Source of the DNA: Bryobacterales bacterium | GTDB taxonomy: Bacteria > Acidobacteriota > Terriglobia > Bryobacterales > Bryobacteraceae | NCBI GenBank assembly: GCA_019261985.1 | Contig: JAFAQY010000028.1 | Coordinates: forward strand, 1 to 51,845 | Length of the DNA stretch: 51,845 nucleotides | Reading direction: 5' to 3' | In this document: positions 39 through 50,620 of the stretch, piece after piece | Layout: each line of letters starts with the position of its first letter | Position numbering within the stretch: position 1 is the first letter of the stretch | Notes under the pieces: generated by a model | Told to the model about the DNA's origin: nothing | Database searches by the model: none | What the model saw: the letters and a program-made list of their open reading frames with translations, nothing else | Position numbers and translations under genes: made by a program

Positions 39-93
39 TTGACAACTTGCGGGCGTGGTGCTAGTTTTACAGCATGTGCTGTTTTTGCAGCAT
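39..93 (+). promoter_or_regulatory. Promoter with BlaI-type operator
   Basis: TTGACA at 39-44, a 17-base spacer and TAGTTT at 62-67 form a likely sigma-70 promoter. Just downstream ACAGCATGTGCTGT (69-82) has perfect 6-base inverted arms, and a further half-site GCAGCAT follows at 87-93. The block from the repeat to the half-site is almost the same as 28033-28125, in front of the BlaI gene. I infer that BlaI also represses this gene. Confidence 0.6.
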
Positions 94-151: not shown

Positions 152-1051
152 ATGAAATGGCTCGGAGTGGCTTTGTTGCCTTTGATTATTGTGACGGCAC
201 GCCCGGTGCAGGGGCAGACAGATCTGGCGAGCGCTCCTGATTGGCAGACGGCGGCGGGAGGGACGATGGCGTTTGAGGTCGCTTCCGTTCGCGAGGACAA
301 AGGGGCGTTAAAGCCCCCCTCCTTTGCCCTGAGTTCCGATGCGTGGTTCCAGGAGCCGAATGGACGGTTCCATGCGGATTTCGCGCTTCCTACCTACATT
401 CAGTTCGCCTATAAGCTTCGGCTTACGCCTGAAGAACGGAGAGCGATGCTGGCGAAACTGCCCCAATGGGTGGGGACGGACCGGTTTGATATTGAGGCGA
501 CAGCTCCGCTGCACGCCACGAAGGATCAGTACCGGCTGATGATGCAGGCCCTGTTAGCCGAACGATTCGGACTAAAACTGCACTTCGAGAAAAGAGAGCT
601 GCCGGTGGTCGAGATGGTGCTGGCGAAGCCCGGAAAACCCGGTCCAAAGCTGACTGCGCATGCGCTGGGGCAATCCTGCGATGAGAAACCGAAGCCGGAG
701 ACGTGGCCGAAGGAGTGCTATAGCTACGCTGGGATGTTCACAAAAGACGGGATGTGGAGGTCTGGCTCACGAGCGACCTCTATGGACCTGGTTGCCGACT
801 TTGTTGGGAGTTCCGCCGGGGCCGATCCCGAAATGGGGCGTCGTGTTGTGGACCAGACTGGGCTGACGGGGCTGTGGGACTTTACCTTGGAGACTGCGCC
901 CGCAGCGCCCACGGCCCCGCAGGATGGGGTACCAGCAGGGCAGACCCTTATCGAGGCCATTCAAGACCAGCTTGGAATCAAATTGAAGCCGGCGCGGGCC
1001 GTGGTTTCCGTGATGGTTATAGATCATCTGGAGCGGCCCAGCGAGAACTGA
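152..1051 (+). CDS. DUF3738 (TIGR03435) secreted protein
   Basis: Exported protein of 299 residues in the TIGR03435/DUF3738 family, whose biochemical role is not known. I chose the ATG at 152 because a signal peptide (MKWLGVALLPLIIVTA) starts there; an in-frame ATG at 74 lies inside the operator region. Family landmarks: FEVASV at 41-46, LPQW at 103-106, RFDIEA at 111-116, LLAERF at 134-139, VVDQTGL at 232-238, WDFTLE at 242-247, VMVIDHLERPSEN at the end. Cys176 and Cys189 could form a disulfide; a similar pair occurs in the BlaR1 fusion at 11172. The two proteins share the LPxW form of the family, unlike the other four domains in the window. The BlaI-type promoter upstream suggests repression by BlaI. 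Confidence 0.9.
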   Translation: MKWLGVALLPLIIVTARPVQGQTDLASAPDWQTAAGGTMAFEVASVREDKGALKPPSFALSSDAWFQEPNGRFHADFALPTYIQFAYKLRLTPEERRAMLAKLPQWVGTDRFDIEATAPLHATKDQYRLMMQALLAERFGLKLHFEKRELPVVEMVLAKPGKPGPKLTAHALGQSCDEKPKPETWPKECYSYAGMFTKDGMWRSGSRATSMDLVADFVGSSAGADPEMGRRVVDQTGLTGLWDFTLETAPAAPTAPQDGVPAGQTLIEAIQDQLGIKLKPARAVVSVMVIDHLERPSEN

Positions 1052-2640: not shown

Positions 2641-2721
2641 TCGCAGGCTAAGGCCCGCTCCACCTGATGGGCCAAGGACACACAGCGATGCTGGAGATTG
2701 AATTGCTTGGTCAAGACGTGG

Positions 2722-4371
2722 ATGCGGCATAGGGTTCAAATATTAGGGTTGTTAATTGGGGCTGTCGGGCTTGCGGCGGATGTCAACAATTGCAGCGCCG
2801 AGCTTTGCCAGTTGACCGCGAGCGGGACTCTCGCAGACTTGCGGTGGCCGGATTTCCACGATTTACACGATGACGCCGGCCGGCTGTATAAATTTACCGG
2901 CTATGCTCCCCTTTGGGTGCGCGATGGCGCGCCCACACCCACTGCGCTCAAAGTGATTGCCGCGTTGAAAGACGCGCGTTCCGAGGGTCTGGATCCGGAA
3001 GATTACGATGGATCGCGCTGGGATGGCCGCATTTCCGGCTTAGGCAACCGCGCGTTCCCGGCAGAGCGTTTCGATCTGGCCCTGACCGTCTCAGCGATGC
3101 GGTACGCCGCGGATTTGCGGTTCGGACGAGCGAATCCCGAAGGACGGCCTTCCGATGGACTTGTGCTTGATGCCTGGGTTCTGGAGCGCTTGCTCCCGTC
3201 TAACGACCCCGCGGCAGTGTTTCAGGAGCTCGATCCGCCCTTCCCGGCATACCAACGTTTGCGAAAAAAGCTTGGGGATTACCGGATGTTGGCGGCGGAG
3301 GATAGCGGGGAAAAACTACCGCAAACGAAAAAGCCGGTCGAGCCGGGTCAGAACTATCCAGGCATCGCGCGGCTAACCACTCTTTTGCAGCGGTTGGGAG
3401 ACCTTCCGCCGGAGGCGCCCGCTTCCTCAGAAACTGGCGGCTCCGGGGATTCTCAAACCTACCAAGGCGCTCTCGTGGATGCGGTGAAACATTACCAGGC
3501 TCGCCATGGGCTGGATGCGGATGGGCGCATCGGCTCGGGAACGGTTGCCGCGCTAAATGTTTGTCTGGATCATCGCGCGCGCCAATTGGAGCTCGCGATG
3601 GAGCGCTATCGCTGGATTCCGCGGGATTCGTCGCGGCCTTCCATCGTGGTAAATATTCCGGAATTCCGTTTGCGCGCCTTCGATCCATCCGGCGGACAGC
3701 CTGTGCTCGATATGAAGGTTGTAACCGGACAAGCGCAGCAGCTACAAACTCCCGTGTTTGGGGCCGACATGCGATACGTGATCTTTCGTCCGTATTGGAA
3801 CGTGCCGGTTACTATCGTGCGCAAAGAAGTGCTTCCGGCTATAACCCGTGATCGGTCTTATTTGGAGAAGAACGATTACGAAGTGACGACTCCGGCGGGC
3901 AAAGTCGTCTCGTCCGGAGCGGTATCGGATCAGATCTTAGCCGGGCTGCGCAGCGGGAAGCTTGAGGTGCGGCAGCGGCCAGGGCCAAAGAACGCGCTCG
4001 GCGGCGTCAAATTCGTTTTGCCCAACGAAAACGATGTTTATTTGCACGATACGCCCGCGCGCTCGCTGTTTTCGCGAACCCGCCGCGATTTCAGCCACGG
4101 CTGCATACGGCTGGAAAAACCGGTGGATTTGGCCGTTTGGGTTCTTCGCGACCGGCCGGAATGGACACGCGACAAAATCGAAGAGGCGATGAACGGATCG
4201 ATGCCGGTGCAGGTTCCGCTATCGAATCCGATCCCGGTTTCAATCGTGTATTGGACCGCGGTGGTCGCGGAGGACGGGACCACCTACTTTTTCAACGATA
4301 TCTACGGGCAGGATGAGGAACTCGATCGCCAGATCACCAGCGGCGGATACGGCCCACGTCCACGTGGATGA
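2722..4371 (+). CDS. L,D-transpeptidase, YcbB/LdtD type
   Basis: Cell-wall enzyme that forms 3-3 cross-links between meso-diaminopimelate residues of peptidoglycan in the periplasm (family knowledge). At 549 residues it has the YcbB layout: N-terminal signal or anchor (ILGLLIGAVGLAA), a scaffold domain with LKVIAALKDARSEGLDPEDY, a peptidoglycan-binding repeat (VDAVKHYQARHGLDADGRIG) and a YkuD catalytic domain. The catalytic signature SHGCIRLEKPVDLAVWVL contains His459 and Cys461. I took ATG 2722; a TTG at 2698 in the same frame would add eight residues. The 3' end overlaps the MepK-like gene by 38 bases, tail to tail. Confidence 0.93.
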   Translation: MRHRVQILGLLIGAVGLAADVNNCSAELCQLTASGTLADLRWPDFHDLHDDAGRLYKFTGYAPLWVRDGAPTPTALKVIAALKDARSEGLDPEDYDGSRWDGRISGLGNRAFPAERFDLALTVSAMRYAADLRFGRANPEGRPSDGLVLDAWVLERLLPSNDPAAVFQELDPPFPAYQRLRKKLGDYRMLAAEDSGEKLPQTKKPVEPGQNYPGIARLTTLLQRLGDLPPEAPASSETGGSGDSQTYQGALVDAVKHYQARHGLDADGRIGSGTVAALNVCLDHRARQLELAMERYRWIPRDSSRPSIVVNIPEFRLRAFDPSGGQPVLDMKVVTGQAQQLQTPVFGADMRYVIFRPYWNVPVTIVRKEVLPAITRDRSYLEKNDYEVTTPAGKVVSSGAVSDQILAGLRSGKLEVRQRPGPKNALGGVKFVLPNENDVYLHDTPARSLFSRTRRDFSHGCIRLEKPVDLAVWVLRDRPEWTRDKIEEAMNGSMPVQVPLSNPIPVSIVYWTAVVAEDGTTYFFNDIYGQDEELDRQITSGGYGPRPRG

Positions 4372-8413: not shown

Positions 8414-8660
8414 TTCCGTTCTGAATCCAAAAACCTGGCGCAGCTAACCCTGAAATTTTAGCAGAGATAACGCCGGCATCAATGGCATCAGACGCGGGAC
8501 CACGCGAAAAGGTGACTGCGGCTAAAACGCGCGGTCGGTGTGTTGGCTGGGTTGTAGCTGTGTTAAGCGGACTGTCCTGTAACCACTAACTGTGTCGCAA
8601 GTACTAATGGCTGAAATCGGTCAGGACCGAGTTCTTACGCGGGGTAAGGAGGTTCGCTCG

Positions 8661-9518
8661 ATGCGAGCAATCATACGTGCTGGTTTAGTCATCTTTGTAG
8701 GCTGCGCAGCGATTGGACAGTCTGTTGATAGGCCCCAATTCGAGGTGGCGTCGGTAAAACGGGGCGCGCGGCCCGTTGTTGGCACGGGAGTACGCGACGG
8801 GGCGCGAGGTGGTCCCGGAACTGCAGATCCCACTCTGGTTGTGTACACAAATCTCAGGCTCAAGGATCTCTTGCTCACCGCCTATGGTCTGAAGGACTAT
8901 CAGGTCGCGGGACCGGACTGGCTCGATACCGAACGGTACGATATCGTTGCCAAGGTCCCACCGAACGCCAGCAAGGACCAATTCGCACTGATGCTTCAAA
9001 GCCTGCTGGTAGAAAGGTTCAAACTGATCACTCATCACGAGTCGAAGGAACTCCCTCTCTACAATCTAGTGGTGGCTAAGAATGGGCCAAGAATGAAGGC
9101 TTGGGCAGACCATCCTAGCACTCTGCAACCGACAGCTCCAGCAGGCCCGCCCACCCTCGGCACGGATGGCTTCCCGCAGGTGTTGCCCGGCCATTTCGCG
9201 ATACTCGTGGTGAACGGACACAATCGCCTTACGGCCAGCAAACTGTCAGTGGGAAAATTGGCCGACATGTTGGCAAGCCAGTTGGGTCGCCCCGTCCTGG
9301 ACAAAACCGGACTCACGGGAGAGTACGACTACCGGCTCGAATTTTCGCCCGAGGGCTTGGGACGAGGTGTGCCGGCTGCGGCGACGCCAGACGACCAGGA
9401 CGTTGTCAGTCTCTTTGGCGCTGTGCAGGAGCAGCTTGGATTGAAGCTGACGAAGGGGCAAGGGACTATCGATGTGATGGTCATCGATCATGCGCAAAAG
9501 GTACCTATCGAGAATTGA
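8661..9518 (+). CDS. DUF3738 (TIGR03435) secreted protein
   Basis: DUF3738 protein of 285 residues. The start at 8661 is set by a good ribosome-binding site (GGTAAGGAGG) and a signal peptide (MRAIIRAGLVIFVGCAAIGQ); the frame is open back to 8592. Landmarks: FEVASVKRG, LLLTAYGLKDYQVAGPDWLD, ERYDIVAKVP, MLQSLLVERFKLITHHESKE, GRPVLDKTGLTGEYDYRLEF, AVQEQLGLKLTKGQG, VMVIDHAQKVPIEN. It belongs to the GPxWLD form of the family, with no cysteine pair. It stands alone between the DUF6152 operon and the toxin-antitoxin remnant; no BlaI-type operator is visible in front of it. Confidence 0.9.
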   Translation: MRAIIRAGLVIFVGCAAIGQSVDRPQFEVASVKRGARPVVGTGVRDGARGGPGTADPTLVVYTNLRLKDLLLTAYGLKDYQVAGPDWLDTERYDIVAKVPPNASKDQFALMLQSLLVERFKLITHHESKELPLYNLVVAKNGPRMKAWADHPSTLQPTAPAGPPTLGTDGFPQVLPGHFAILVVNGHNRLTASKLSVGKLADMLASQLGRPVLDKTGLTGEYDYRLEFSPEGLGRGVPAAATPDDQDVVSLFGAVQEQLGLKLTKGQGTIDVMVIDHAQKVPIEN

Positions 9519-10430: not shown

Positions 10431-10684
10431 TGCACCGTTGGTTGCGCTATGCGTGTTTGGGGCGCACTGCGCATGGGCGCAAGGCAGAGGCCGTGGAGGC
10501 GGCAAGCCGCTGCTCCGCCCGCCGGACCGGCGGAGCCAACGCCGCGCTGGCGCGATGGCCCGAACCTGGGTCCGACGCCGGATCACAAAGCATATTGGGA
10601 GCTGCGGCCTGGGTTCGGCGGCATGCCGCGAGCCAACGACGTTCCGTTTCAGCCGTGGGCGCGGGCGCTGTATCAATATCGCGG
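10431..10684 (+). pseudogene. Fragment of the 7646-type secreted protein gene
   Basis: Matches about 7657-7912 closely, covering codons from the signal peptide (PLVALCVFGAHCAWAQ) to FQPWARALYQYR. The start codon is missing, and the frame shifts after GRGRGGGK, so the rest (AAAPPAGPAEPTPR onward) is in another frame. The gene body downstream is absent. It joins directly to the mutase fragment and ends before the BlaI promoter. Confidence 0.85.
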
Positions 10685-10729
10685 CTCGGCCTGGCGTACT
10701 AGCTGCGCTCGCACGCCGCAAAACAGGGG

Positions 10730-10770
10730 TTGACTATGCTACATATGTAGCATTATGCTACACATGTACC
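10730..10770 (+). promoter_or_regulatory. BlaI promoter with two operators
   Basis: TTGACT (10730-10735), an 18-base spacer and TATGCT (10754-10759) form the promoter. TGCTACATATGTAGCA (10737-10752) is a perfect 16-base palindrome filling the spacer. A second, slightly degraded copy, TGCTACACATGTACC, runs from 10756 to 10770 across the -10 box. Both contain the TACA-N2-TGTA core typical of BlaI/MecI/CopY repressors. The BlaI start codon is only four bases after the second operator, so the leader is very short. Confidence 0.85.
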
Positions 10771-10773
10771 GTA

Positions 10774-11175
10774 ATGCCGCTATCCAAAGCCGATTCCGCA
10801 CTCCTTACACGTCGCGAACGGGAGATCATGAACGCCGTCTTCGCGCTGGGGAACCGCGCGTTGGTGGATGACATCCGCGCACGCTTAACAAACCCGCCCA
10901 GCGATTCGGCTGTTCGCGCGATGCTCGTGCGGCTCGAAAATAAGGGCTTCCTGAAGCACCAGTACGATGGCCCGCGCTACGTTTACTCCGCGACTATCTC
11001 CCCGGCTGTCGCGAAGCGCACGGCTCTGCAGCAGTATTTGCAGACCTTCTTCGGGGGCTCGCTGCGTCAGATGATGACGGCTCTGGTGTCCGACGCCTCA
11101 TGGACGGATGACGATCTCGACGCCCTAAAGCATGAAATCGATCGGGTTCGCAAAGAAAGGAAAAAACAGTCATGA
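10774..11175 (+). CDS. BlaI/MecI-family repressor
   Basis: Winged-helix repressor of 133 residues. RREREIMNAVFALGNRALVD and PPSDSAVRAMLVRLENKGFL form the DNA-binding domain, and the C-terminal half (ALQQYLQTFFGGSLRQMMTA) is the dimerisation region that BlaR1-type systems target for cleavage. ATG 10774 follows directly on two operators, so the gene is very probably self-repressed. A longer open frame back to 10438 is only a gene fragment and was not used. Its stop overlaps the start of the BlaR1 fusion gene by four bases, so the pair is translationally coupled. Confidence 0.92.
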   Translation: MPLSKADSALLTRREREIMNAVFALGNRALVDDIRARLTNPPSDSAVRAMLVRLENKGFLKHQYDGPRYVYSATISPAVAKRTALQQYLQTFFGGSLRQMMTALVSDASWTDDDLDALKHEIDRVRKERKKQS

Positions 11176-13064
11176 CGCCCGCGATGCGTGAGTTCTTGCT
11201 TGCGATCAGTGAGTCTCGGTTCGCTTCAATTATCGCCAAGGTGACCGTCCTCGCCGCGTTGGGTCTGCTTGCTGCCTGGCTGGCACGCCGCAATCGCGCG
11301 GCCGTCCGGCATGCGCTGCTGGCTGCGGCGTTCGGCGCGATGTTACTCTTGCCGATCGCCGCCGAGTTCATGCCGCCGTTCCACGTGGGTTTGCCCGTCG
11401 GAGAGGAAAATGCGAGCTTACTTCCGTTCAGGACCGGCAGCGACGCGAACTCATCCACCATCGCGTTCCGCGCCGGTAATCATGTGGACACGACCGCGCC
11501 GCAGGCGTCGAAGCTTTCGCTGTCCAGCCTGTTGCTCGGGGTTTGGGGCACGGGGGTTGTGGTCTTTCTCCTCCCGGTGATCGTCGGTCTGTGGCAGATT
11601 AGCGCGTTGCGCCGGTCGGCTTTGCCATGGCGACATGGGCAGTCTGTTGCCGAGCCCCTGGCGCTGGATGCCGGCATTCGTCGGCGCGTTTACGTTTTTG
11701 TGCATCAGGCGCTGCCGGGACCGATGACGTGTGGTCTGATGCGCCCTGCCATACTGCTGCCGTTGGACGCAGAGCACTGGACCAGGGAGGACCTTGATCG
11801 CGCCTTGGTACACGAACTGGAGCACATCCGTCGAGGAGACTCGGTAATACGTTGCTTAGCGCGGGCTACCTGTTCTGCATATTGGTTCCATCCGTTAGTT
11901 TGGATCGCATGGCGTAAGCTCGTGCTGGAAGCGGAACGCTCCTGCGATGACGCAGTGCTCCGGCGCTCGGAAGCAACGTCATATGCCGAACAACTGGTCG
12001 GGCTTGCCAAACGGCTGTCGGCAGCGCGCAAAATGCCCGCCCTAACGATGGCTAGTTGCATCGACTTGGCAACGCGCGTCAACGCAATCCTGGACATCCA
12101 ACAGAGCCGCGGAAGGTGGGGAGCCAATTCAGTTCTGCTGGTGTCGACAGTTGCGGCTGGACTCGTTGGTGCGATTTCGCCTCTCACAGTAGTGGGGGCG
12201 CCTCAGGACGGCTTCGATGCGCTCAAGGAAGCCCCACTGTCGTTTGAAGTCGCTTCTGTAAAGCGGAACAAATCAGATGCGCCGGGGTACTCGAATTTCC
12301 CTCTTAACGCGGGCGATGCATACATCGAGAATGGCGGTCACTTTGTTGCGCGCAACTTTCCGCTAGTCACATACATCTTCTTCGCCTATAAATTAATGGG
12401 TAATCAGGGCCGCCCCGTGTTGTCTCAACTACCCCGCTGGGCGATAGCAGACGGTTTCGACATCGAGGCCCGAGCAATCGGAAATCCAACCAAGGACCAG
12501 ATGCGTTTAATGATGCGGTCGCTGCTCGCCGAACGCTTCAAACTGGGGCTTCACACAGAGAGGCGCGAAATCCCAGTCCTCGCATTCGTCCTAGCGAAGG
12601 CGGGAAAGACTGGCCCCCAGTTACAGCCGCACGATGCCGCCACACCTTGCGAGCCGAACGCCGTTCCGGCTCCGGGCGACCGCTACCCGAACACGTTTCA
12701 GCAGATAGTCGCGGGTCAGATGCCCAGTCTGTGCAATGTGATTCTCGGCCTTCCGGCAAGCGTTGTTGGCCGCTCACGGCTCGGCGGACGCAATGTGACC
12801 ATCGGATTCATGGCGGACATGTTCAGCCAACGGGTGGACCGCGGGCGCCCCATGATTGATGCGACGGGACTTCCCGGAAAATTCGACTTTGTTCTCGAAT
12901 TCACACCGGACGGTCCCACGCCGGCGACGGCCGGCGAGCCTCAATCCGATGGCCCGACCTTCGAAGAAGCTCTTACCGATCAACTCGGACTCAAAGCAGA
13001 GTCACGAAAGAGCTTGATGGACGTAATCGTGCTCGACAACGTGGAGCGGCCCACGCAGAATTGA
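11172..13064 (+). CDS. BlaR1-type M56 metallopeptidase fused to DUF3738
   Basis: Membrane sensor-protease of 630 residues. The N-terminal half is M56: membrane helices near 22-40, 47-65 and 120-141, the zinc motif HELEHIRRGD with HELEH at 214-218, and LEAERSCDDAVL near 252-263. A last helix (320-341) leads outward. In classical BlaR1 the outside part is a beta-lactam-binding domain; here residues 357-630 are a DUF3738 domain (FEVASVKRNK, LSQLPRWAIADGFDIEA, LLAERFKLGLHTERRE, MIDATGLPGKFDFVLEF, ALTDQLGLKAESRK, VIVLDNVERPTQN). I infer that this domain senses an envelope signal and activates the protease to inactivate BlaI. The cysteines in TPCEPNA and PSLCNV echo the protein at 152. Confidence 0.92.
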   Translation: MTPAMREFLLAISESRFASIIAKVTVLAALGLLAAWLARRNRAAVRHALLAAAFGAMLLLPIAAEFMPPFHVGLPVGEENASLLPFRTGSDANSSTIAFRAGNHVDTTAPQASKLSLSSLLLGVWGTGVVVFLLPVIVGLWQISALRRSALPWRHGQSVAEPLALDAGIRRRVYVFVHQALPGPMTCGLMRPAILLPLDAEHWTREDLDRALVHELEHIRRGDSVIRCLARATCSAYWFHPLVWIAWRKLVLEAERSCDDAVLRRSEATSYAEQLVGLAKRLSAARKMPALTMASCIDLATRVNAILDIQQSRGRWGANSVLLVSTVAAGLVGAISPLTVVGAPQDGFDALKEAPLSFEVASVKRNKSDAPGYSNFPLNAGDAYIENGGHFVARNFPLVTYIFFAYKLMGNQGRPVLSQLPRWAIADGFDIEARAIGNPTKDQMRLMMRSLLAERFKLGLHTERREIPVLAFVLAKAGKTGPQLQPHDAATPCEPNAVPAPGDRYPNTFQQIVAGQMPSLCNVILGLPASVVGRSRLGGRNVTIGFMADMFSQRVDRGRPMIDATGLPGKFDFVLEFTPDGPTPATAGEPQSDGPTFEEALTDQLGLKAESRKSLMDVIVLDNVERPTQN

Positions 13065-13065
13065 T

Positions 13066-13869
13066 ATGAGGCGACTCTTTGTTGGCGCGTGTACGATTGC
13101 GCTTTTCACCATAGGCCACAAAGTATCTTCGCAGTCAGCTGACAAACGCCCACGCTTCGAAAAATTCGAAGTGGCGACCATTAAACCGACTCCTCCGGAT
13201 TGGAAGGGCGGGCGGTACATACGAATGATCAGCCCGCAGCGATTCTTTGCTCCCAATTTTTCAGTCAGAGCGCTGATTGCGGCTGCTTATGGTCTTTCTC
13301 CGCCGGTGATCCGCGGCGGTCCTGCGTGGCTGGACGCTGATCGGTATGACATAAATGCTGTTACACCAGGGGATGTTCGGCCAAATTTGGACGATCAAAT
13401 GGCAATGCTCAGGGAGCTATTGGTAGATCGTTTCAAGCTCACTTTCCATCGAGAGCAACGGGAATTCTCTGTCTATGCCCTCACCATCAACCGGAACGGC
13501 CCAAAGCTCAAGGCGAGCGCCGCGCCGGTGGATGACCCGCCCGAACTTGTGAATATAGTCTACCCCGGAGAAGGCGTTCGACTACCGGCGCGCAACGCCA
13601 CCATGGGCCAATTCGCCGCCATGATGCAGCGATCCATATTCGACAGGCCCGTGCTGGATCGGACTGGCCTCCCGGGACGATATGACTTCGATCTCGAATG
13701 GACGCCCGATGAATTTCAGTTCGATGGGACTCTTAAGGACAATCCGGAATCGACAAAGCCGGGAATCTTCGCCGCGCTGCAAGAGCAACTAGGTTTGAAA
13801 CTAGAAGCGACGCGAGGTCCAGTGCTGGCGATGATCATCGATGGGGTCACGCGGCCCTCGGAAAACTGA
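13066..13869 (+). CDS. DUF3738 (TIGR03435) secreted protein
   Basis: DUF3738 protein of 267 residues starting one base after the BlaR1 fusion gene, so it belongs to the BlaI operon. Signal peptide MRRLFVGACTIALFTIGHK. This copy shows an internal duplication clearly: NFSVRALIAAAYGL (64-77), RYDINA (93-98), LLVDRFKL (118-125) and VYALTI (136-141) correspond to NATMGQFAAMMQRSI (177-191), RYDFDL (205-210), LQEQLGLKL (238-246) and VLAMII (253-258). The product is probably periplasmic or extracellular, and may share a ligand or partner with the DUF3738 part of the neighbouring sensor (inference). Confidence 0.9.
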   Translation: MRRLFVGACTIALFTIGHKVSSQSADKRPRFEKFEVATIKPTPPDWKGGRYIRMISPQRFFAPNFSVRALIAAAYGLSPPVIRGGPAWLDADRYDINAVTPGDVRPNLDDQMAMLRELLVDRFKLTFHREQREFSVYALTINRNGPKLKASAAPVDDPPELVNIVYPGEGVRLPARNATMGQFAAMMQRSIFDRPVLDRTGLPGRYDFDLEWTPDEFQFDGTLKDNPESTKPGIFAALQEQLGLKLEATRGPVLAMIIDGVTRPSEN

Positions 13870-13959: not shown

Positions 13960-14760
13960 ATGAATCCGCAACGAAGGGGTGTTCTTGAAAGGGCCGGAGT
14001 CGGCCCCACGAAAGTGCGTCTCGCCGGATTAGCGATAACCTGCGCCGCGCTGATCGGCCAAATCAATCCCAGATTCGATGTGGCCACTATAAAACCGTCG
14101 CAACCGGAGCCAGGTACTCGCCGTTTTTTGATACAGGGGCGCCGTTTTGTCACGCTCAAGACTTCACTCGCCGATTTGATCCAATTCGCTTACGGCCTCC
14201 ACCCGCATCAAATCGTGAATGGTCCGAAGTGGCTAGAGTCAGACAAGTTCGACGTCGTTGGCCAGACCAGTAGCGACACTCAACCAGCTGAGCAGGAATG
14301 GATGAGGATGATGAGCGCGCTGCTCTCGGAAAGGTTTCAATTGCGATTTCACTTGGAGAAACGCGAGCTTCCGGTCTATGCAATCGCGGTCGGCCGCGAC
14401 GGCGCGAAGCTGAAGCCAAGCGATGGCAACCCAAACGGACCAGGATCGGTCGCATTTCACGGCCGGGGCCAACTTGTTGCAACCAACGCCACGCTCGACG
14501 ACCTTGCCTGGGAGTTGCAATCGGCGATTGTCGATAGACCGGTGGTCAATAAGACTGGGCTGAGTGCTCGCTTCAATTTCACGCTCACTTGGACTCCGGA
14601 TGAGTTTCAGAATTCCAACTTGGCCGGACCGGCACCCACAAACGACGTGCCGGGGCTGTTTACGGCTATCCAGCAACAATTGGGGATACGGCTGGAAGCG
14701 AGTAGATCGATTGTTGACGTAATGGTGGTGAACAGTGTCGAGTTGCCGAGCCGAGATTAG
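13960..14760 (+). CDS. DUF3738 (TIGR03435) protein
   Basis: DUF3738 protein of 266 residues, 90 bases after the previous copy on the same strand. The N-terminus has a positively charged stretch before a hydrophobic segment (VRLAGLAITCAALIGQ), so export is likely although the signal is atypical. Landmarks: FDVATIKPSQPE, DLIQFAYGLHPHQIVNGPKW, KFDVVGQTS, LLSERFQLRFHLEKRELPVY, DRPVVNKTGLSARFNFTLTW, AIQQQLGIRLEASRS, VMVVNSVELPSRD. It may be read from the BlaI operon or from its own promoter; no clear -35/-10 pair was found in the gap. Confidence 0.88.
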   Translation: MNPQRRGVLERAGVGPTKVRLAGLAITCAALIGQINPRFDVATIKPSQPEPGTRRFLIQGRRFVTLKTSLADLIQFAYGLHPHQIVNGPKWLESDKFDVVGQTSSDTQPAEQEWMRMMSALLSERFQLRFHLEKRELPVYAIAVGRDGAKLKPSDGNPNGPGSVAFHGRGQLVATNATLDDLAWELQSAIVDRPVVNKTGLSARFNFTLTWTPDEFQNSNLAGPAPTNDVPGLFTAIQQQLGIRLEASRSIVDVMVVNSVELPSRD

Positions 14761-28018: not shown

Positions 28019-28057
28019 GCGGACTGAAGTCCGCCGCAGGTTGGCAACCTGCCCCAC
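28019..28057. repeat. Hairpin repeat, GGCGGACTGAAGTCCGCC module
   Basis: GGCGGACTGAAGTCCGCC and GCAGGTTGGCAACCTGC are two perfect hairpins, followed by CCCAC and a run of T at 28058-28066. The second hairpin plus the T run looks like an intrinsic terminator, isolating the BlaI promoter just downstream. It matches the copy at 1-36. Confidence 0.85.
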
Positions 28058-28069
28058 TTTTTTTTTCGC

Positions 28070-28125
28070 TTGACAACGCGCGGGCGTTGGTGCTAGTTTT
28101 ACAGCAGATGCTGGTTTTGCAGCAT
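28070..28125 (+). promoter_or_regulatory. BlaI promoter and operator
   Basis: TTGACA (28070-28075), an 18-base spacer and TAGTTT (28094-28099) form the promoter. ACAGCAGATGCTGG (28101-28114) and GCAGCAT (28119-28125) are operator half-sites. The layout and most bases are the same as at 39-93. The BlaI start codon is 15 bases further on. Confidence 0.7.
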
Positions 28126-28139
28126 CGGAACGGCCGGCG

Positions 28140-28526
28140 ATGAAAAAAGATTCGCAACGTAACCTTACCCGACGCGAGCGCCAAATTATGGACGTGCTCT
28201 TCGAGCGCGGGCGAGCGACCGCGGCTGAAATTCACGCCGCTCTTCCCGACGCCCCCTCCTATTCGGCTGTGAGGGCCGCGCTTAAGGTGATGGAGAAGAA
28301 AGGACACGTCCGTTATCAGATCGACCGGCTGCGCTATGTCTGGACGCCGCGAACCACGCGCAGCCAGGCTCGCCTGGCGGAACTACGCCGGCTGGTCCGA
28401 ACGTTTTTCGACGGAAGCCCGGAACAAGCTCTGTCCGCGCTTCTGGACGAAAGCGCTCTGTCGTTAGACGATGAAACCAAGGGGCGGATTCGAGCCTTGA
28501 TCGAAAAAGCGGAAGAACGAAAATGA
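28140..28526 (+). CDS. BlaI/MecI-family repressor
   Basis: Winged-helix repressor of 128 residues: TRRERQIMDVLFERGRATAA, DAPSYSAVRAALKVMEKKGH and VRYQIDRLRYVWTP form the DNA-binding domain; LAELRRLVRTFFDGSPEQAL starts the dimerisation part. Compared with the BlaI at 10774 the operators differ (ACAGCA/TGCTGT here, TGCTACATATGTAGCA there), so the two repressors probably control separate gene sets. The stop overlaps the BlaR1 start (ATGA). Confidence 0.92.
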   Translation: MKKDSQRNLTRRERQIMDVLFERGRATAAEIHAALPDAPSYSAVRAALKVMEKKGHVRYQIDRLRYVWTPRTTRSQARLAELRRLVRTFFDGSPEQALSALLDESALSLDDETKGRIRALIEKAEERK

Positions 28527-30061
28527 TCGAATTTTTCATCGAGTGCTCCGTGAGGGTGGCCGCCATCATGGCCGCGGCGTTTCTTATTACATGGCTCGTT
28601 AGAAGTCAGTCCGCCGCATTGCGCCATATTGCCTGGACGGCGGCATTTGCGGTCGCGCTAGCCACTCCACTGCTGGTTCGATGGGCACCCCCAACTGTAG
28701 CTCCTTTGAGCCTCCCGATTGCGATTCAGGTGGATGCCGTTACTACATCGACCGCGCCGCGAAAACCTGCGCCAAAATCACTCCCTTACAAACAGGCTAC
28801 GGCCGGAGTCTGGGCTGCCGGGTGTCTGGTGTGCGCCATTCGAATGATGCGAGGAGCAATGGCCGCTCGTGCGCTGCGCAGGGGCGCTCATACCCTGGAT
28901 ATCCATACGGAGGTCCGAGGAGACGTCGCCATCGCTGAAAACGACTCGGCCGCTGTCGCGATGACGCTTGGGGTATTTCGCCCGCTTGTTTTATTGCCCA
29001 CGCATTATCGCGACTGGCATCCATCGCGGCTTCGCGCCGTACTGCTTCACGAGCTGGCGCACGTGCGCCGGAGGGATTGCCTGGCGCGATGGCTGCCGCA
29101 AATCGTGTGCGCGCTGCACTGGTTTAATCCTTTGATATGGCTCGCCCGCGCACAAATGCTGTGCGAAAGTGAGCGCGCCTGCGATGACGCCGTGCTTAAC
29201 GCGGGCGCCAGCGGTCCCGATTTTGCCCGCGATCTTCTTGCAATTGCCGAAACCTCCGGCTTGAAAGGAGCCGATCCCATGCTTGTTACTATCGCTACCC
29301 GCCTCGAGCGCCGCATCGCGCGTTTGCTGGATGCGTCCGCTAACCGTCGGCCGATGAGCCGCGTTCACGCGCTTGGAACCGCGGCCGTTGTGCTTGTTCT
29401 TCTTCTGCCGCTCGCGGCGGTGCGAGCGCAAGCTCCCGGAGCGCAAACCGGAGCACTGTCAGGGGTAATATCCGATCCGAGCGGCGCGGTTATCGCCAAC
29501 GCGGTCGTTAATCTCTCAGGCCCGGCCGGAAAATTGGCCATCGCCGCCGATCCCAGAGGAGCTTGGACGGCGAAAAATCTCGCGCCCGGGCGCTATCAGA
29601 TCGATGTGTCGGTACCCGGCTTCGTCGCCCTTCGCCAATTGGTGGATGTGGACGCGGGCGCGACGGCTCAGGTTAAACAGGCATTGACGATCGGACAGGT
29701 TGCCGAGCGAGTCACGGTGGTGGGAGCCGCGGTTTCCCGGCCCGCGGTCACGCAGGCGGCGCCGGCCCAACGAATCCGTGTTGGCGGAAACATTCAGGCG
29801 GCCAAACTGATTTCTAAAACCGATCCCGTTTATCCCGACTCCGCTCGCCAGCAGGGCCTGGAAGGGACGGTTCTGATTCAGGCGATCATCGGCAAGACCG
29901 GAAATATCATGGACGCCCACGTCCTCGGCAACGACACGCCACAGGACCTGGCACAAGCCGCGCTGGATGCAGTGCGAACGTGGCAGTATCAACCCAGCCG
30001 GCTGAACGGCGAGCCGGTGGAAGTGATCACCACCGTCACGATTAATTTTCAGTTGAGATAG
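28523..30061 (+). CDS. BlaR1-type M56 metallopeptidase with TonB C-terminal domain
   Basis: Membrane protein of 512 residues. The M56 part has helices near 13-27, 36-52 and 93-108, the zinc motif HELAHVRRRD (HELAH at 176-180) and CESERACDDAVL near 214-225. After a last helix (282-302) come two extracytoplasmic domains: a carboxypeptidase-regulatory Ig-like domain at about 311-395 (GVISDPSGAVIANAVVNLSG) and a TonB C-terminal domain at 425-512 (DPVYPDSARQQGLEGTVLIQ, ALDAVRTWQYQPSRLNGEPV). In TonB the C-terminus touches the TonB box of outer-membrane receptors. I infer that this sensor reads the state of such a receptor and then inactivates BlaI. M56-TonB fusions are known from annotation in other phyla; I know of no functional proof. 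Confidence 0.92.
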   Translation: MIEFFIECSVRVAAIMAAAFLITWLVRSQSAALRHIAWTAAFAVALATPLLVRWAPPTVAPLSLPIAIQVDAVTTSTAPRKPAPKSLPYKQATAGVWAAGCLVCAIRMMRGAMAARALRRGAHTLDIHTEVRGDVAIAENDSAAVAMTLGVFRPLVLLPTHYRDWHPSRLRAVLLHELAHVRRRDCLARWLPQIVCALHWFNPLIWLARAQMLCESERACDDAVLNAGASGPDFARDLLAIAETSGLKGADPMLVTIATRLERRIARLLDASANRRPMSRVHALGTAAVVLVLLLPLAAVRAQAPGAQTGALSGVISDPSGAVIANAVVNLSGPAGKLAIAADPRGAWTAKNLAPGRYQIDVSVPGFVALRQLVDVDAGATAQVKQALTIGQVAERVTVVGAAVSRPAVTQAAPAQRIRVGGNIQAAKLISKTDPVYPDSARQQGLEGTVLIQAIIGKTGNIMDAHVLGNDTPQDLAQAALDAVRTWQYQPSRLNGEPVEVITTVTINFQLR

Positions 30062-46104: not shown

Positions 46105-49053
46105 ATGAAGCGCACACTGCTGTTGTTGTCGTTGTGCGCTACCAGTCTCCTCGCGCTTGATCCCAATCGCACGCTGACGCAGTACGTTCACCGCATCTGG
46201 ACGGTTCAGCAGGGTCTGCCGACCGGCACAATTTACGACATCTGGCAGACGCGGGACGGCTATATCTGGCTGGGAACGCAAACCGGTCTTGTGCGCTTCG
46301 ACGGCGTGCGCTTTACCGCCGCCGAAAATATTTACCCGGGTGTTCCGGAGAACCTGTGGGTCCGCGCCGGTTTTGAAGATTCCTCCGGCTCGCTGTGGGT
46401 CGCAACGAACGATATGGGCGTTCTGCGGATCCGCAATGGCGCGATTACGCGTTATGGCGCGAAGGAGGGTTTGCCGACCGACGTCGCCTTCTGTTTGGTG
46501 CAGGGTGACCAGGGCGATCTTTGGGCTTGTACCTCGAACGGCCTGGCACATCTCAAAGACGGCAAAATTCACGTCGAGCATTTGAGCGAAACGGGACCCG
46601 ATGCGGTTCGCGCCGCGTGCCGTTCCACGGACGGAACGCTGTGGGTGGGCGGCGACAAACCGGAGGTGCTGGCGCGCAGAGAACGCGGGTTTGAAACGTA
46701 CTCGCTCAATGGCATACCCGCAGACGCGGGCGTTCGCGCGATTGCGTGTTCGCGTGGAACGGTGTGGGTCGGGACCACCGCCGGGCTGATCGAAATGAAA
46801 GGCGTGTCACAGCGGCTCTATACGGAAAACGATGGGCTGGTGGATGACGGCATTCTTTCGATTACCGAAAGCGGGGATGGCTCACTATGGGTGGGCACAC
46901 GCAGCGGCTTCAGCAGACTACGCAACGGAGAGTTCGAAAGTTTCCGGCCGCAGGACGGGCTTTCGCAAAGCAGCGTATCTTCCCTGTATGAGGATCGCGA
47001 AGGCAGCCTGTGGGTAGGCACCAAACACGGCCTGAATCAGTTTGTGGAAGGCCGCGCGATTCCCTACACCGTGAACGAAGACCTACCGAGCAATAACACC
47101 GGTCCTCTGCTGCAAGACCGTAATGGCGAGGTCTGGGTCGGCACGCTCGATTCGGGTCTGGCGCGTTTCAACGGCCGTCATTTTTCCTCCCTGCGCGCTC
47201 GGAATGGATTGGCTTCCGACGTTGTCCTCGCATTGGCGGAAGATTCCGGCGGAGCAATCTGGGTGGGAACGAATCGCGGTTTGAATCGCCTTCGCGCCGG
47301 GCGTTTTGAAGCGACTTATAAGCGGCAAGCGGGATTGCCGTCCGATGAAATCCGCGCGCTCTACCGCGGCCGAACCGGGGAGTTATGGGTGGGAACGGAA
47401 GCGGGCTTGGCCGTTCTCAAAGACGGCAAATTCGAAACGCCGGCGGGATCGCCGCGCAACCCGATCTGGGCGATCGCGGCCGACAAGGAAGGCCACGCGG
47501 TGTTTTCCACCGAGCACGGCCTATTCCGGCTGGAGAACGGCAGTGTTCGCGAGATCGCGCCCGGCGGCACGGCGCTGCGGAATATCGACGCAATTTACCT
47601 GGATTCGGAGGGCTTTCTGTGGCTGGGAACGAATGGAAATGGGCTGCGTTTGCTGGAAGAAACAAATGGCCAACAGAAAGCTCCGCAGCTATTGATGCGC
47701 GACGGCTTGTTCGATAGCGAAATCTACGGCATCATCGGCGATGGCCAGGACCGGTTATGGCTGGCCTGCAGCAAAGGAATTTTCTCGGTGCCGCGCAAGG
47801 AACTGCTGCGATTCGCGGCGGGCGAAATCAAAAAAGTCAATAGCTCGCCTTACAGTCCAACGGATGCGCTGCGCGTGATCGAATGCAAGGCGGGGGTACA
47901 GCCGGGCGCGTGGAAAATGAGCGACGGAAGATTGTGGTTTTCCACGATTCGCGGTTTGATCGTGCTGAATCCGAACCGGCTGACTCGAAATGTTCCGCCG
48001 CCGCCGGTGGTGATCGAAAACCCGATTGTGAACGGCAAGGCGGAAGAAGCCTCGGCCATCGGGAGCTTGGCCGCGGGGCAGAAAAATGTAGAATTCAATT
48101 ACACCGGATTGAGTTTTGTGGCGCCCGCGCGGCTGACGTTCCGCTATATTCTGGAGGGCTACGACAAAAATTGGATCGACGCCGGCACGCGGCGCGAGGC
48201 GTATTACACTAACCTTCCTCCGGCGAGTTACCGGTTCCGCGTGACGGCGTGCAATGGCGACGGACTATGCAACGAGGAGGGCAGCTCAGTAGCCTTTACG
48301 CTTGCGCCCCATTTTTACCAGCGCATCTGGTTCATTCCCGCGCTAATTGCGTTGGCCGCCCTGATCGCCTGGGCGGGGTATCGCTTCCGGATTCGCGACC
48401 TGCGCGAACGATACGATCTGATCATTGCAGAACGGAGCCGGATCGCCCGCGAATTGCATGACACGCTGATCCAGGGATTCTCGGGAATCACGATGGAGCT
48501 GCAAGCGTTGCTGGCGCGCCTGCGATCCGCCGAGGAGCGTCGCAGACTCGAAGAAATCATCGATGACTGCGCCACGGCGCTGCGCGAAACGCGGCGCAGC
48601 GTAGCGGGATTGCGACGGGCTGCTCAATCCGAATCCGGCCTGGCGGGTTCTATCGCCCAAGCTGCCCGGCAGATTACCGAAACCAAAGACGTACGTCTAA
48701 AGTTGAAGCTGGGCAAGAGTCCGTCCGGACTTGCCCCAGATGCGGAGTACAACCTGTTACGCATTGCCAGCGAAGCGATTTCGAATTCGGTAAAGCATTC
48801 CGGAGCGCACACCATTGAGGTGACGTTGGATGCCGGCGGCGATGCTCTGCGGCTTTCCGTATCGGACGACGGCGCTGGGTTTCAAGCCGATAATGGCCAC
48901 GCGCGGACCGGACATTATGGACTGATCGGAATGCGTGAGCGCGCGGCGCAGATCGGCGCGGAACTGGAAATCGAAAGCGCCCCAGGACGGGGGACGACGG
49001 TCCGGCTGGTGGCGCCGTTAGGGCGATCGGCGCTGGCGGAGGTTTCGGGATGA
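46105..49053 (+). CDS. Sensor histidine kinase with periplasmic propeller
   Basis: Membrane kinase of 982 residues. The signal peptide (MKRTLLLLSLCATSLLA) is followed by about 14 Reg_prop repeats, for example GLPTGTIYDIWQTRDGYIWL and VSSLYEDREGSLWVGTKHGL, forming two propeller domains. A Y_Y_Y domain (FRYILEGYDKNWIDAGTRRE) ends near 735. One membrane helix (IWFIPALIALAALIAWAGYRF region) precedes the HisKA_3 box RIARELHDTLIQGFSG with His785, and a HATPase domain (EAISNSVKHSGAHTIEV, LSVSDDGAGF, GHYGLIGMRERAAQIG). It lacks a fused receiver. The ligand is probably a sugar or polymer fragment, as in related systems, not proven here. Overlaps the regulator gene by four bases. Confidence 0.93.
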   Translation: MKRTLLLLSLCATSLLALDPNRTLTQYVHRIWTVQQGLPTGTIYDIWQTRDGYIWLGTQTGLVRFDGVRFTAAENIYPGVPENLWVRAGFEDSSGSLWVATNDMGVLRIRNGAITRYGAKEGLPTDVAFCLVQGDQGDLWACTSNGLAHLKDGKIHVEHLSETGPDAVRAACRSTDGTLWVGGDKPEVLARRERGFETYSLNGIPADAGVRAIACSRGTVWVGTTAGLIEMKGVSQRLYTENDGLVDDGILSITESGDGSLWVGTRSGFSRLRNGEFESFRPQDGLSQSSVSSLYEDREGSLWVGTKHGLNQFVEGRAIPYTVNEDLPSNNTGPLLQDRNGEVWVGTLDSGLARFNGRHFSSLRARNGLASDVVLALAEDSGGAIWVGTNRGLNRLRAGRFEATYKRQAGLPSDEIRALYRGRTGELWVGTEAGLAVLKDGKFETPAGSPRNPIWAIAADKEGHAVFSTEHGLFRLENGSVREIAPGGTALRNIDAIYLDSEGFLWLGTNGNGLRLLEETNGQQKAPQLLMRDGLFDSEIYGIIGDGQDRLWLACSKGIFSVPRKELLRFAAGEIKKVNSSPYSPTDALRVIECKAGVQPGAWKMSDGRLWFSTIRGLIVLNPNRLTRNVPPPPVVIENPIVNGKAEEASAIGSLAAGQKNVEFNYTGLSFVAPARLTFRYILEGYDKNWIDAGTRREAYYTNLPPASYRFRVTACNGDGLCNEEGSSVAFTLAPHFYQRIWFIPALIALAALIAWAGYRFRIRDLRERYDLIIAERSRIARELHDTLIQGFSGITMELQALLARLRSAEERRRLEEIIDDCATALRETRRSVAGLRRAAQSESGLAGSIAQAARQITETKDVRLKLKLGKSPSGLAPDAEYNLLRIASEAISNSVKHSGAHTIEVTLDAGGDALRLSVSDDGAGFQADNGHARTGHYGLIGMRERAAQIGAELEIESAPGRGTTVRLVAPLGRSALAEVSG

Positions 49054-49699: not shown

Positions 49700-50620
49700 A
49701 TGCGAATGACGGTGTTGACGCTCGTTTGTTGCGCTTTGGTCTTCGGACAGAGCGACGCCAAGCTCTCGTTTGAGGTGGCGACCATAAAGCCCGCTCCTCC
49801 GCTTGGCGGCGGAGCTGTTCAGATTGGTATGCGCGGTGGCCCCGGAACTCAGGATCCGGGCCGCGTGAATTACATGGGTGTCCCGCTCACGATGCTTCTG
49901 CAAAACGCTTTCGGCCTGAAGCGGTACCAGATCTCCGGACCGCCGTGGCTCGACACAGAAAGATTCGATATTGTCGCAAAGGTTCCAGACGGCGCAACAA
50001 AGGAGCAGTCCAACATAATGCTCCAGAATCTATTGATTGAGCGATTCGGCCTGACCTTCCACCGCGAGAGCAAGGAGTTTCCATTGTACGAGCTCACGGT
50101 TGCAAAGAACGGGTCGAAGTTAAAAACCGCGGCGGAGGCTCCCGCTGGAGCAGATCAGCCGGTGCCCGGGCAGACAGGTAAAGACGGGGGTCCTCCGCCC
50201 ATCGGAAAAGACGGGCTTCCGCAGCTCCCGCCCGGCAGGCCGGGCGCGTTCATGATGATGGCTCCCGGAGGCATGCGCATGGTAGGCAATATGCGCACTG
50301 TTCAAGAGATCGCCGATATGCTGGGAAATCAGTTGGGCACTCCGGTGGTCGACAAAACCGGCTTGAGCGGAAAATACGACTTTACTCTAACTTTCTCGCG
50401 TGAGCCGGGCCAAGGTCTTCCAGGATTGCCTCCGCCCCCGCCGCCTCCTCCGGGCGGAGATGCCGGGCCCGGCAAACTTGGTCCCGGGCCCGATCTGAGC
50501 GATGCAGCGAACCTGTTCACCGCGGTGCAGGAGCAGCTCGGGCTGAAGCTGGACAAGAAAAAGGGGCCGCTGGACGTGCTCGTCATCGATCACATGGAGA
50601 AGACTCCAACCGAAAACTGA
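49700..50620 (+). CDS. DUF3738 (TIGR03435) secreted protein
   Basis: DUF3738 protein of 306 residues with a signal peptide (MRMTVLTLVCCALVFGQS). Landmarks: FEVATIKPAPPLGGGAVQ, LQNAFGLKRYQISGPPWLD, RFDIVAKVPD, MLQNLLIERFGLTFHRESKE, GTPVVDKTGLSGKYDFTLTF, AVQEQLGLKLDKKKG, VLVIDHMEKTPTEN. It is longer than the others because of a Pro/Gly insertion (LPGLPPPPPPPPGGDAGPG). It follows the response regulator by 14 bases and so is probably in the two-component operon, which gives DUF3738 a second link to signal transduction. Confidence 0.92.
   Translation: MRMTVLTLVCCALVFGQSDAKLSFEVATIKPAPPLGGGAVQIGMRGGPGTQDPGRVNYMGVPLTMLLQNAFGLKRYQISGPPWLDTERFDIVAKVPDGATKEQSNIMLQNLLIERFGLTFHRESKEFPLYELTVAKNGSKLKTAAEAPAGADQPVPGQTGKDGGPPPIGKDGLPQLPPGRPGAFMMMAPGGMRMVGNMRTVQEIADMLGNQLGTPVVDKTGLSGKYDFTLTFSREPGQGLPGLPPPPPPPPGGDAGPGKLGPGPDLSDAANLFTAVQEQLGLKLDKKKGPLDVLVIDHMEKTPTEN

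Follow-up and report, generated by a model that had tools for sequence, protein, structure and literature searches.

A candidate BlaI/BlaR1 relay with a TonB-type sensor end and a predicted envelope regulon in Bryobacterales-type Acidobacteriota

The blaI-blaR1 pair at positions 28140-30061 of the window (the whole stretch of 51,845 nucleotides that was analysed) is, on balance and judged from sequence comparison, probably a self-regulating BlaI/BlaR1 relay belonging to Acidobacteriota of the Bryobacterales type, in which BlaI would control an envelope regulon and the TonB_C end of BlaR1 would act as a protein-binding sensor. The predicted regulon suggests that BlaR1-type relays serve envelope functions besides antibiotic resistance. 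Its chief predicted members belong to DUF3738, a large exported family in this bacterial family, and part of that family can now be approached by experiment for the first time, through its predicted repressor, operator and sensor.

Domain structure of the blaI-blaR1 locus

The locus contained the following features.

28140..28526, plus strand: blaI repressor gene (Penicillinase_R, E 5e-21), with a 4-nt overlap with blaR1
28523..30061, plus strand: blaR1, 512 amino acids, M56 metalloprotease with a CarboxypepD_reg and TonB_C ectodomain (Pfam, structure model, Foldseek, 29 orthologous loci)
28535..29320, plus strand: Peptidase_M56 domain with the HELAH zinc motif (H176, E177, H180)
29456..29686, plus strand: CarboxypepD_reg (transthyretin-like) domain, predicted to be periplasmic
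29825..30055, plus strand: TonB_C domain, predicted to be periplasmic

The sequence-only reading of this DNA had described a BlaR1 that ends in a carboxypeptidase-regulatory domain and a TonB C-terminal domain, and this was confirmed by Pfam, by the structure model and by Foldseek. All three Pfam domains scored above cut-off: Peptidase_M56 at residues 5-266 (E 5e-28), CarboxypepD_reg at 312-388 (E 4e-12) and TonB_C at 435-511 (E 2e-20). In a 22-row alignment, E177 and H180 of the zinc motif were invariant and H176 was nearly so. The rows were the window protein and 21 of the 29 other orthologues; L037, which is a copy of the window protein, stood outside the alignment, as did L047, L052, L054, L055, L056, L058, L059 and L062. 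The model folded from this alignment had a mean pLDDT of 80.8. Foldseek matched it to the transmembrane and protease part of Staphylococcus aureus BlaR1 (8exr_A; TM-score 0.56 by target, 3.1 A) and to the TonB C-terminal domain bound to the receptor FoxA (6i97_D; 0.87, 1.5 A, 27% identity), and the model also resembled S. aureus BlaR1 itself and carboxypeptidase transthyretin-like domains. A profile search with BlaR1 recovered both TonB2 (2k9k, E 6e-17) and BlaR1 (8exs, E 3e-15). By analogy with BlaR1, the order of three transmembrane helices, a cytosolic protease, a fourth transmembrane helix and a C-terminal ectodomain would place TonB_C in the periplasm. A role in anti-phage defence was discarded, as PADLOC gave no match for BlaR1, BlaI or the DUF3738 protein.

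Distribution and conservation

M56 and BlaI each had nine matches in the source genome, all of them paired by position. Of these M56 proteins, four carried TonB_C, four had an in-frame DUF3738 end, and the ninth had DUF3738 in a separate frame. At this last blaI-M56 locus (G000:C56:7504-9002; L005, L105) the DUF3738 ectodomain was out of frame with the M56 part, as would result either from disruption of the gene or from an error in the sequence.

The BlaR1 query matched somewhere in 144 of 150 family genomes (E<=1e-20), and among the matches listed about 46 of the 150 genomes, by hand count, had one spanning the full protein (from residue 40 or earlier to residue 510 or later). Among the 30 best orthologous loci, which include the window's own, blaI lay directly upstream of blaR1 in all 29 that had room for it, and an F[FY]xG[SN] stretch was kept in 27 of 29 BlaI proteins. 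TonB_C was the most conserved part of the orthologues, with a mean entropy of 1.45 bits, compared with 1.61 for the M56 core and 2.03 for CarboxypepD_reg. In a scan of named-species genomes, the protein-spanning matches among the 80 loci listed were from Acidobacteriota, mostly Bryobacterales-type MAGs, and most of the remaining matches covered the M56 part only.

Promoters and predicted operators

Predicted operators preceded blaI, an exported DUF3738 gene and a second blaI in the window.

28070..28124, plus strand: promoter -35 (TTGACA) with tandem operators (28091-28106, 28109-28124), before blaI
39..92, plus strand: near-copy of this promoter/operator cassette, upstream of a DUF3738 gene, with operators at 59-74 and 77-92
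152..1051, plus strand: exported DUF3738 protein, predicted target of this BlaI class (Pfam E 3e-46; signal peptide by eye; start chosen by us, longest ORF 74-1051)
10737..10752, plus strand: single exact dyad, the second being imperfect, before the second blaI

Upstream of the blaI orthologues the predicted operator layout was TTGAC, about 15 bp, TGCTR-N6-YAGCA, 2-4 bp and a second dyad, so placed by sequence comparison that the tandem dyads overlap the blaI promoter. Tandem dyads with at most three mismatches in total were found in 24 of 29 upstream regions, compared with 0.03% of mononucleotide shuffles. The cassette of about 28033-28126 recurred nearly identically at 1-93, ahead of the exported DUF3738 gene, and 12 dyads with at most one mismatch were found in the window, where 3.2 were expected. 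Single-dyad sites numbered 24 in the source genome, compared with 52 in the reversed control; 15 of the 24 were read and six more were known window and C110 sites, while the sites C103:34651, C118 and C137, which fell outside the reading, had no TTGAC at the position set for the promoter-linked pattern. The classical TACA/TGTA-type BlaI operator was rejected as a candidate, since it matched none of the 29 orthologous and only one of the eight paralogous upstream regions, and this sole match was in the DUF3738-BlaR1 operon, within its TGCTA dyads.

Operators within a genome resembled each other: that at window 28091-28124 resembled that at 59-92, and that of C110, which belongs to a TPR-TonB_C BlaR1, resembled that of C63. 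In genome G108, GCA(A/G)CA features were common to the DUF3738 operator and the blaI of L039, and AAATTCAGCA was common to the TPR operator and the blaI of the TPR-type BlaR1. We infer from these sequences that BlaI proteins and operators are probably paired as cognates within genomes.

Predicted regulon in 150 genomes

The blaI promoters alone, and no DUF3738 gene, served to derive the operator pattern, which was scanned in 150 genomes. The exact tandem pattern was found at 59 sites in 45 genomes and at none in the reversed control. Fifty-two of the 59 sites were at blaI (33 read, 19 assigned by coordinates). The other seven preceded two exported DUF3738 genes, both in the source genome (window 59-92 and C63:41564-41598), two genes for exported TPR proteins (L150, L151), a TonB-like gene with a TPR gene behind it (L153), a gene for an exported protein without a Pfam match (L158) and a peptidase-like gene (L159).

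The promoter-linked dyad gave 108 matches in 65 of the 150 genomes, compared with 30 (a hand sum) in the reversed control, and 75 of the 108 were at blaI (64 by coordinates, 11 read). Sixteen further sites were read. Nine were at DUF3738 genes (the source genome's own two, L262, L267, L271, L272, L275, L278 and L279), three at TonB-like genes (L153, L276, L277), one each at L269 and L159, and two had no clear gene; the names given to L159 (peptidase-like) and L269 (CarboxypepD_reg-like) were assigned by eye. Another 17 sites had mostly G+C-rich centres, with the source genome's own, on C95, lying inside a coding frame and the other 16 left unread. The reversed control implies about 30 chance promoter-linked sites and 19 of the 108 resemble chance, so the other non-blaI sites may include some. 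When up to two mismatches were allowed in the tandem pattern, a setting at which the reversed control matched too, the matches listed included L262, the blaI promoters L261, L263 and L266, L265, which had no clear target, and a site in genome G062.

In total, DUF3738 genes lay behind a predicted operator at 10 loci in 8 genomes, two of the loci being in the source genome, and in genome G062 the operator, a DUF3738 gene, blaI and blaR1 followed one another in a row. The binomial chance of nine DUF3738 genes in 16 is below 1e-10 even if they make up 1.9% of genes, a figure that is a rough guide, as related genomes are not independent; the DUF3738 share was put at roughly 0.2-2% of genes, assuming 1.1 kb per gene. 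In three of the 150 genomes (G030, G053, G102) this operator class preceded a TonB_C gene whose product was organised like TonB. Two of the DUF3738 targets were atypical, that of L267 having an in-frame stop near its start and that of L279 a partial domain match.

At L272, L275, L278 and L279 the operator runs into the DUF3738 start codon that was chosen (TAGCATG), so these transcripts may have little or no leader. A separate exported family of about 260-380 amino acids recurred next to these operators in four genomes (L082:4069-5217, plus strand; L158:3547-4617, plus strand; L148 and L060, adjacent to blaI or after blaR1). The four members were homologous to one another (pairwise E 3e-7 to 8e-27), and the two compared with Pfam, those of L082 and L158, had no match.

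DUF3738 proteins and the second BlaR1

The second blaI-blaR1 pair of the window was followed by two DUF3738 genes.

10774..11175, plus strand: second blaI (start chosen by us; longest ORF 10438-11175)
11172..13064, plus strand: second blaR1, M56 with a DUF3738 ectodomain (Pfam)
13066..13869, plus strand: DUF3738 protein directly after the second blaR1 (Pfam E 1e-60)
13960..14760, plus strand: DUF3738 protein, next in line (Pfam E 2e-57)

Five stand-alone DUF3738 genes were found in the 52 kb (152-1051, 8592-9518, 13066-13869, 13960-14760 and 49700-50620), in addition to the one DUF3738-BlaR1. The source genome had 37 DUF3738 matches, and the ten genomes searched had 24-146 each among the matches listed. 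DUF3738 (PF12543; TIGR03435) was not named in the literature searched, which took in only a minority of subscription papers. The idea that all DUF3738 genes form one BlaI regulon was rejected, as a BlaI-type dyad lay upstream at only 3 of the 30 source-genome loci read (two TGCTR, one TACTA-type); two more of the genes follow blaR1 (13066, 13960).

Both BlaR1 proteins of the window had been thought to carry outer domains linked to the TonB pathway, TonB_C in the first and an STN-like DUF3738 in the second. TonB_C was indeed found in the first; the STN-likeness of DUF3738 gained no support and was not disproved. Foldseek gave the DUF3738 model (mean pLDDT 78.3) no PDB match better than E 3.2, hhalign gave a probability of 0.2% with a shallow STN alignment (8 rows, L168 dropped), and none of 21 DUF3738 sequences had an STN match at E<=5.

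The window also encoded an L,D-transpeptidase with YkuD, scaffold and PG_binding_1 domains (2698-4371), close to the DUF3738 target, and a hybrid sensor protein with a Reg_prop propeller and Y_Y_Y, HisKA_3 and HATPase domains (46105-49053).

Role of the TonB_C end

In five genomes (G054, G103, G088, G057, G017) a third gene after blaR1 encoded a CarboxypepD_reg-TonB_C protein with a signal peptide, judged by eye, and no further transmembrane helix. In two of these, G057 and G017, BlaR1 itself ended after CarboxypepD_reg and had no TonB_C; the upstream region of G057 had no TGCTR operator (best tandem 6 mismatches). In other words, TonB_C appears to be supplied either in cis or in trans, and because the exported partners include two that stand alongside a BlaR1 without TonB_C, this end looks like a sensing module rather than an energy transducer. 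Other exported TonB_C proteins without a TonB-like anchor, again judged by eye, were found in the source genome. In a tree of 35 TonB_C domains, that of the window BlaR1 grouped with those of other BlaR1 proteins, and those of the TPR-BlaR1 proteins formed a clade (support 97/91) with the anchored TonB proteins L010 and L011 and the predicted target L153. From this placement we infer that BlaR1 probably acquired TonB_C more than once, or exchanged it.

An unlikely alternative, though the best placed of those considered, is that the TonB_C end touches receptor plugs or TonB boxes and relays the state of transport to BlaI, which would then control genes for outer-membrane transport, much as in FecR/FecI signalling. 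The fold is that of a canonical receptor-binding TonB, and tonB-like genes were predicted targets in three of the 150 genomes. However, no receptor gene was found at the 16 non-blaI promoter-linked sites read, a set that does not extend to the 16 G+C-rich sites, and no operator with at most one mismatch was found from 30703 to the window end, hence none near the TonB receptor at 37688. The exported TonB_C partners and the other TonB_C proteins of the source genome, with no membrane anchor and no TonB-like anchor respectively, also speak against it. The sequence-only reading had linked BlaR1 to the receptor at 37688 through a shared CarboxypepD_reg domain. This domain was present in the receptor (residues 21-89), but it is uninformative as a link: scoring 150 of the 169 candidates in the source genome gave 131 matches to the family. 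STN, the domain of FecA-type signalling receptors, had no match in the source genome and was matched in only 9 of 61 family genomes, in 4 of them above the cut-off. What held of the proposed class of protease-relayed sensors was a conserved sensor with a TonB-type ectodomain, and the operator class before TonB_C genes in three genomes indicates some tie to the TonB pathway; a regulon of receptor genes was not supported. Sensing of receptor state by BlaR1 is a possible function on these sequence grounds.

It is less probable still, and in our view distinctly doubtful, that the protein is a cell-wall sensor like classical BlaR1, responding to peptidoglycan damage or beta-lactams with TonB_C as a peptidoglycan-binding module. 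The M56/BlaI relay is that of BlaR1, and the affinity of TonB C-terminal domains for peptidoglycan counts in favor of such a role. Against it, a Pfam search (E<=0.01) found no penicillin-binding (class D-like) sensor domain in BlaR1, and no beta-lactamase or penicillin-binding protein was recognised among the non-blaI targets read.

That BlaR1 is a TonB energy transducer which incidentally carries an M56 domain and powers receptors through its TonB_C end is very improbable: the TonB_C domain is canonical and wholly normal by sequence, and the 2007 survey of the TonB family by Chu, Peacock and Vogel reportedly counted MecR1-TonB fusions among TonB proteins, but the SxxxH motif was absent from the TM4 region in 30 of 30 BlaR1 orthologues, the zinc motif is conserved, blaI adjoins wherever there is room, and TonB_C is also supplied as an exported protein without a further transmembrane helix. 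SxxxH is named as the TonB motor motif in PMC12204202.

Proposed mechanism

In the favored reading, an autoregulated relay with a protein-binding sensor, BlaI would bind the tandem TGCTR-N6-YAGCA dyads over the promoter and shut the blaI-blaR1 operon, together with a small envelope regulon in which exported DUF3738 proteins predominate and which takes in tonB in some genomes. BlaR1 would cross the inner membrane, its zinc protease facing the cytosol and its CarboxypepD_reg-TonB_C end serving as a protein-binding sensor in the periplasm. The edge strand of TonB_C may meet a periplasmic partner by beta-strand pairing, as in TonB, and candidates for this partner are DUF3738 proteins, TonB boxes and other proteins of the envelope. 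A changed bound state would presumably switch the protease on, BlaI would be cut, and the operon and the exported proteins would be made. Both the cleavage and the direction of the switch are modelled on the BlaR1 relay, as covered in PMC7593790.

A bolder proposal, which we offer tentatively and regard as rather unlikely, is that the sensor ends are copies of the regulated effectors. Proteins of the same types as the BlaR1 ectodomains (DUF3738, CarboxypepD_reg-TonB_C, TonB_C and TPR) were also encoded separately, either exported or anchored, in a shared operon or downstream of this class of operator. Examples are the DUF3738 genes after the DUF3738-BlaR1 of the window, the exported CarboxypepD_reg-TonB_C proteins encoded after blaR1 in five genomes, the tonB-like genes of three genomes, and exported TPR proteins in genomes with a TPR-bearing BlaR1. 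The TPR target itself was set aside as an ectodomain copy, as the similarity was weak (24% over 263 aa, E 4e-6). The model for this proposal is the classical BlaR sensor, which is akin to class D beta-lactamases according to PMC9045261. If the proposal is true, the tethered copy, by vying with the free effector for a single target, would register whether the effector is sufficient, and the TonB_C types would gauge how the supply of TonB compares with outer-membrane demand.

Comparison with known systems

The relay is most readily compared with staphylococcal BlaR1/BlaI and MecR1/MecI (MEROPS M56). Common to both are the M56 zinc motif, four transmembrane helices (here in the model), an adjoining gene of the BlaI family, dyad operators over the promoter (here seen in sequence) and a C-terminal outer sensor. 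Unlike in the staphylococcal systems, the ectodomain here is CarboxypepD_reg and TonB_C rather than a penicillin-binding sensor, the predicted operator is TGCTR-N6-YAGCA, and DUF3738 and tonB-like genes take the place of a beta-lactamase or penicillin-binding protein as predicted targets. With FecA/FecR/FecI the likeness is one of analogy, in that a periplasmic sensor could read the state of the outer membrane and relay it by proteolysis; the difference is that BlaI is a repressor and not an ECF sigma factor, that the genome has no STN match and that no receptor was among the targets read. The DUF3738 family is involved on both sides, as the predicted targets and the ectodomains of the sister BlaR1 proteins are both members of it.

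The literature searched, most subscription papers being outside its scope, held no description of the operator, of the DUF3738/tonB regulon or of the exported TonB_C partner. The closest relatives in architecture are the MecR1-TonB fusions of the 2007 survey, which reportedly share the M56-type N-terminal part and the TonB C-terminal domain. M56-TonB_C fusions as such are thus said to be known already; what is added here, and appears from sequence to be new, is the operator with its predicted DUF3738/tonB regulon and an exported TonB_C partner that acts in trans, along with the insertion of CarboxypepD_reg between protease and TonB_C.
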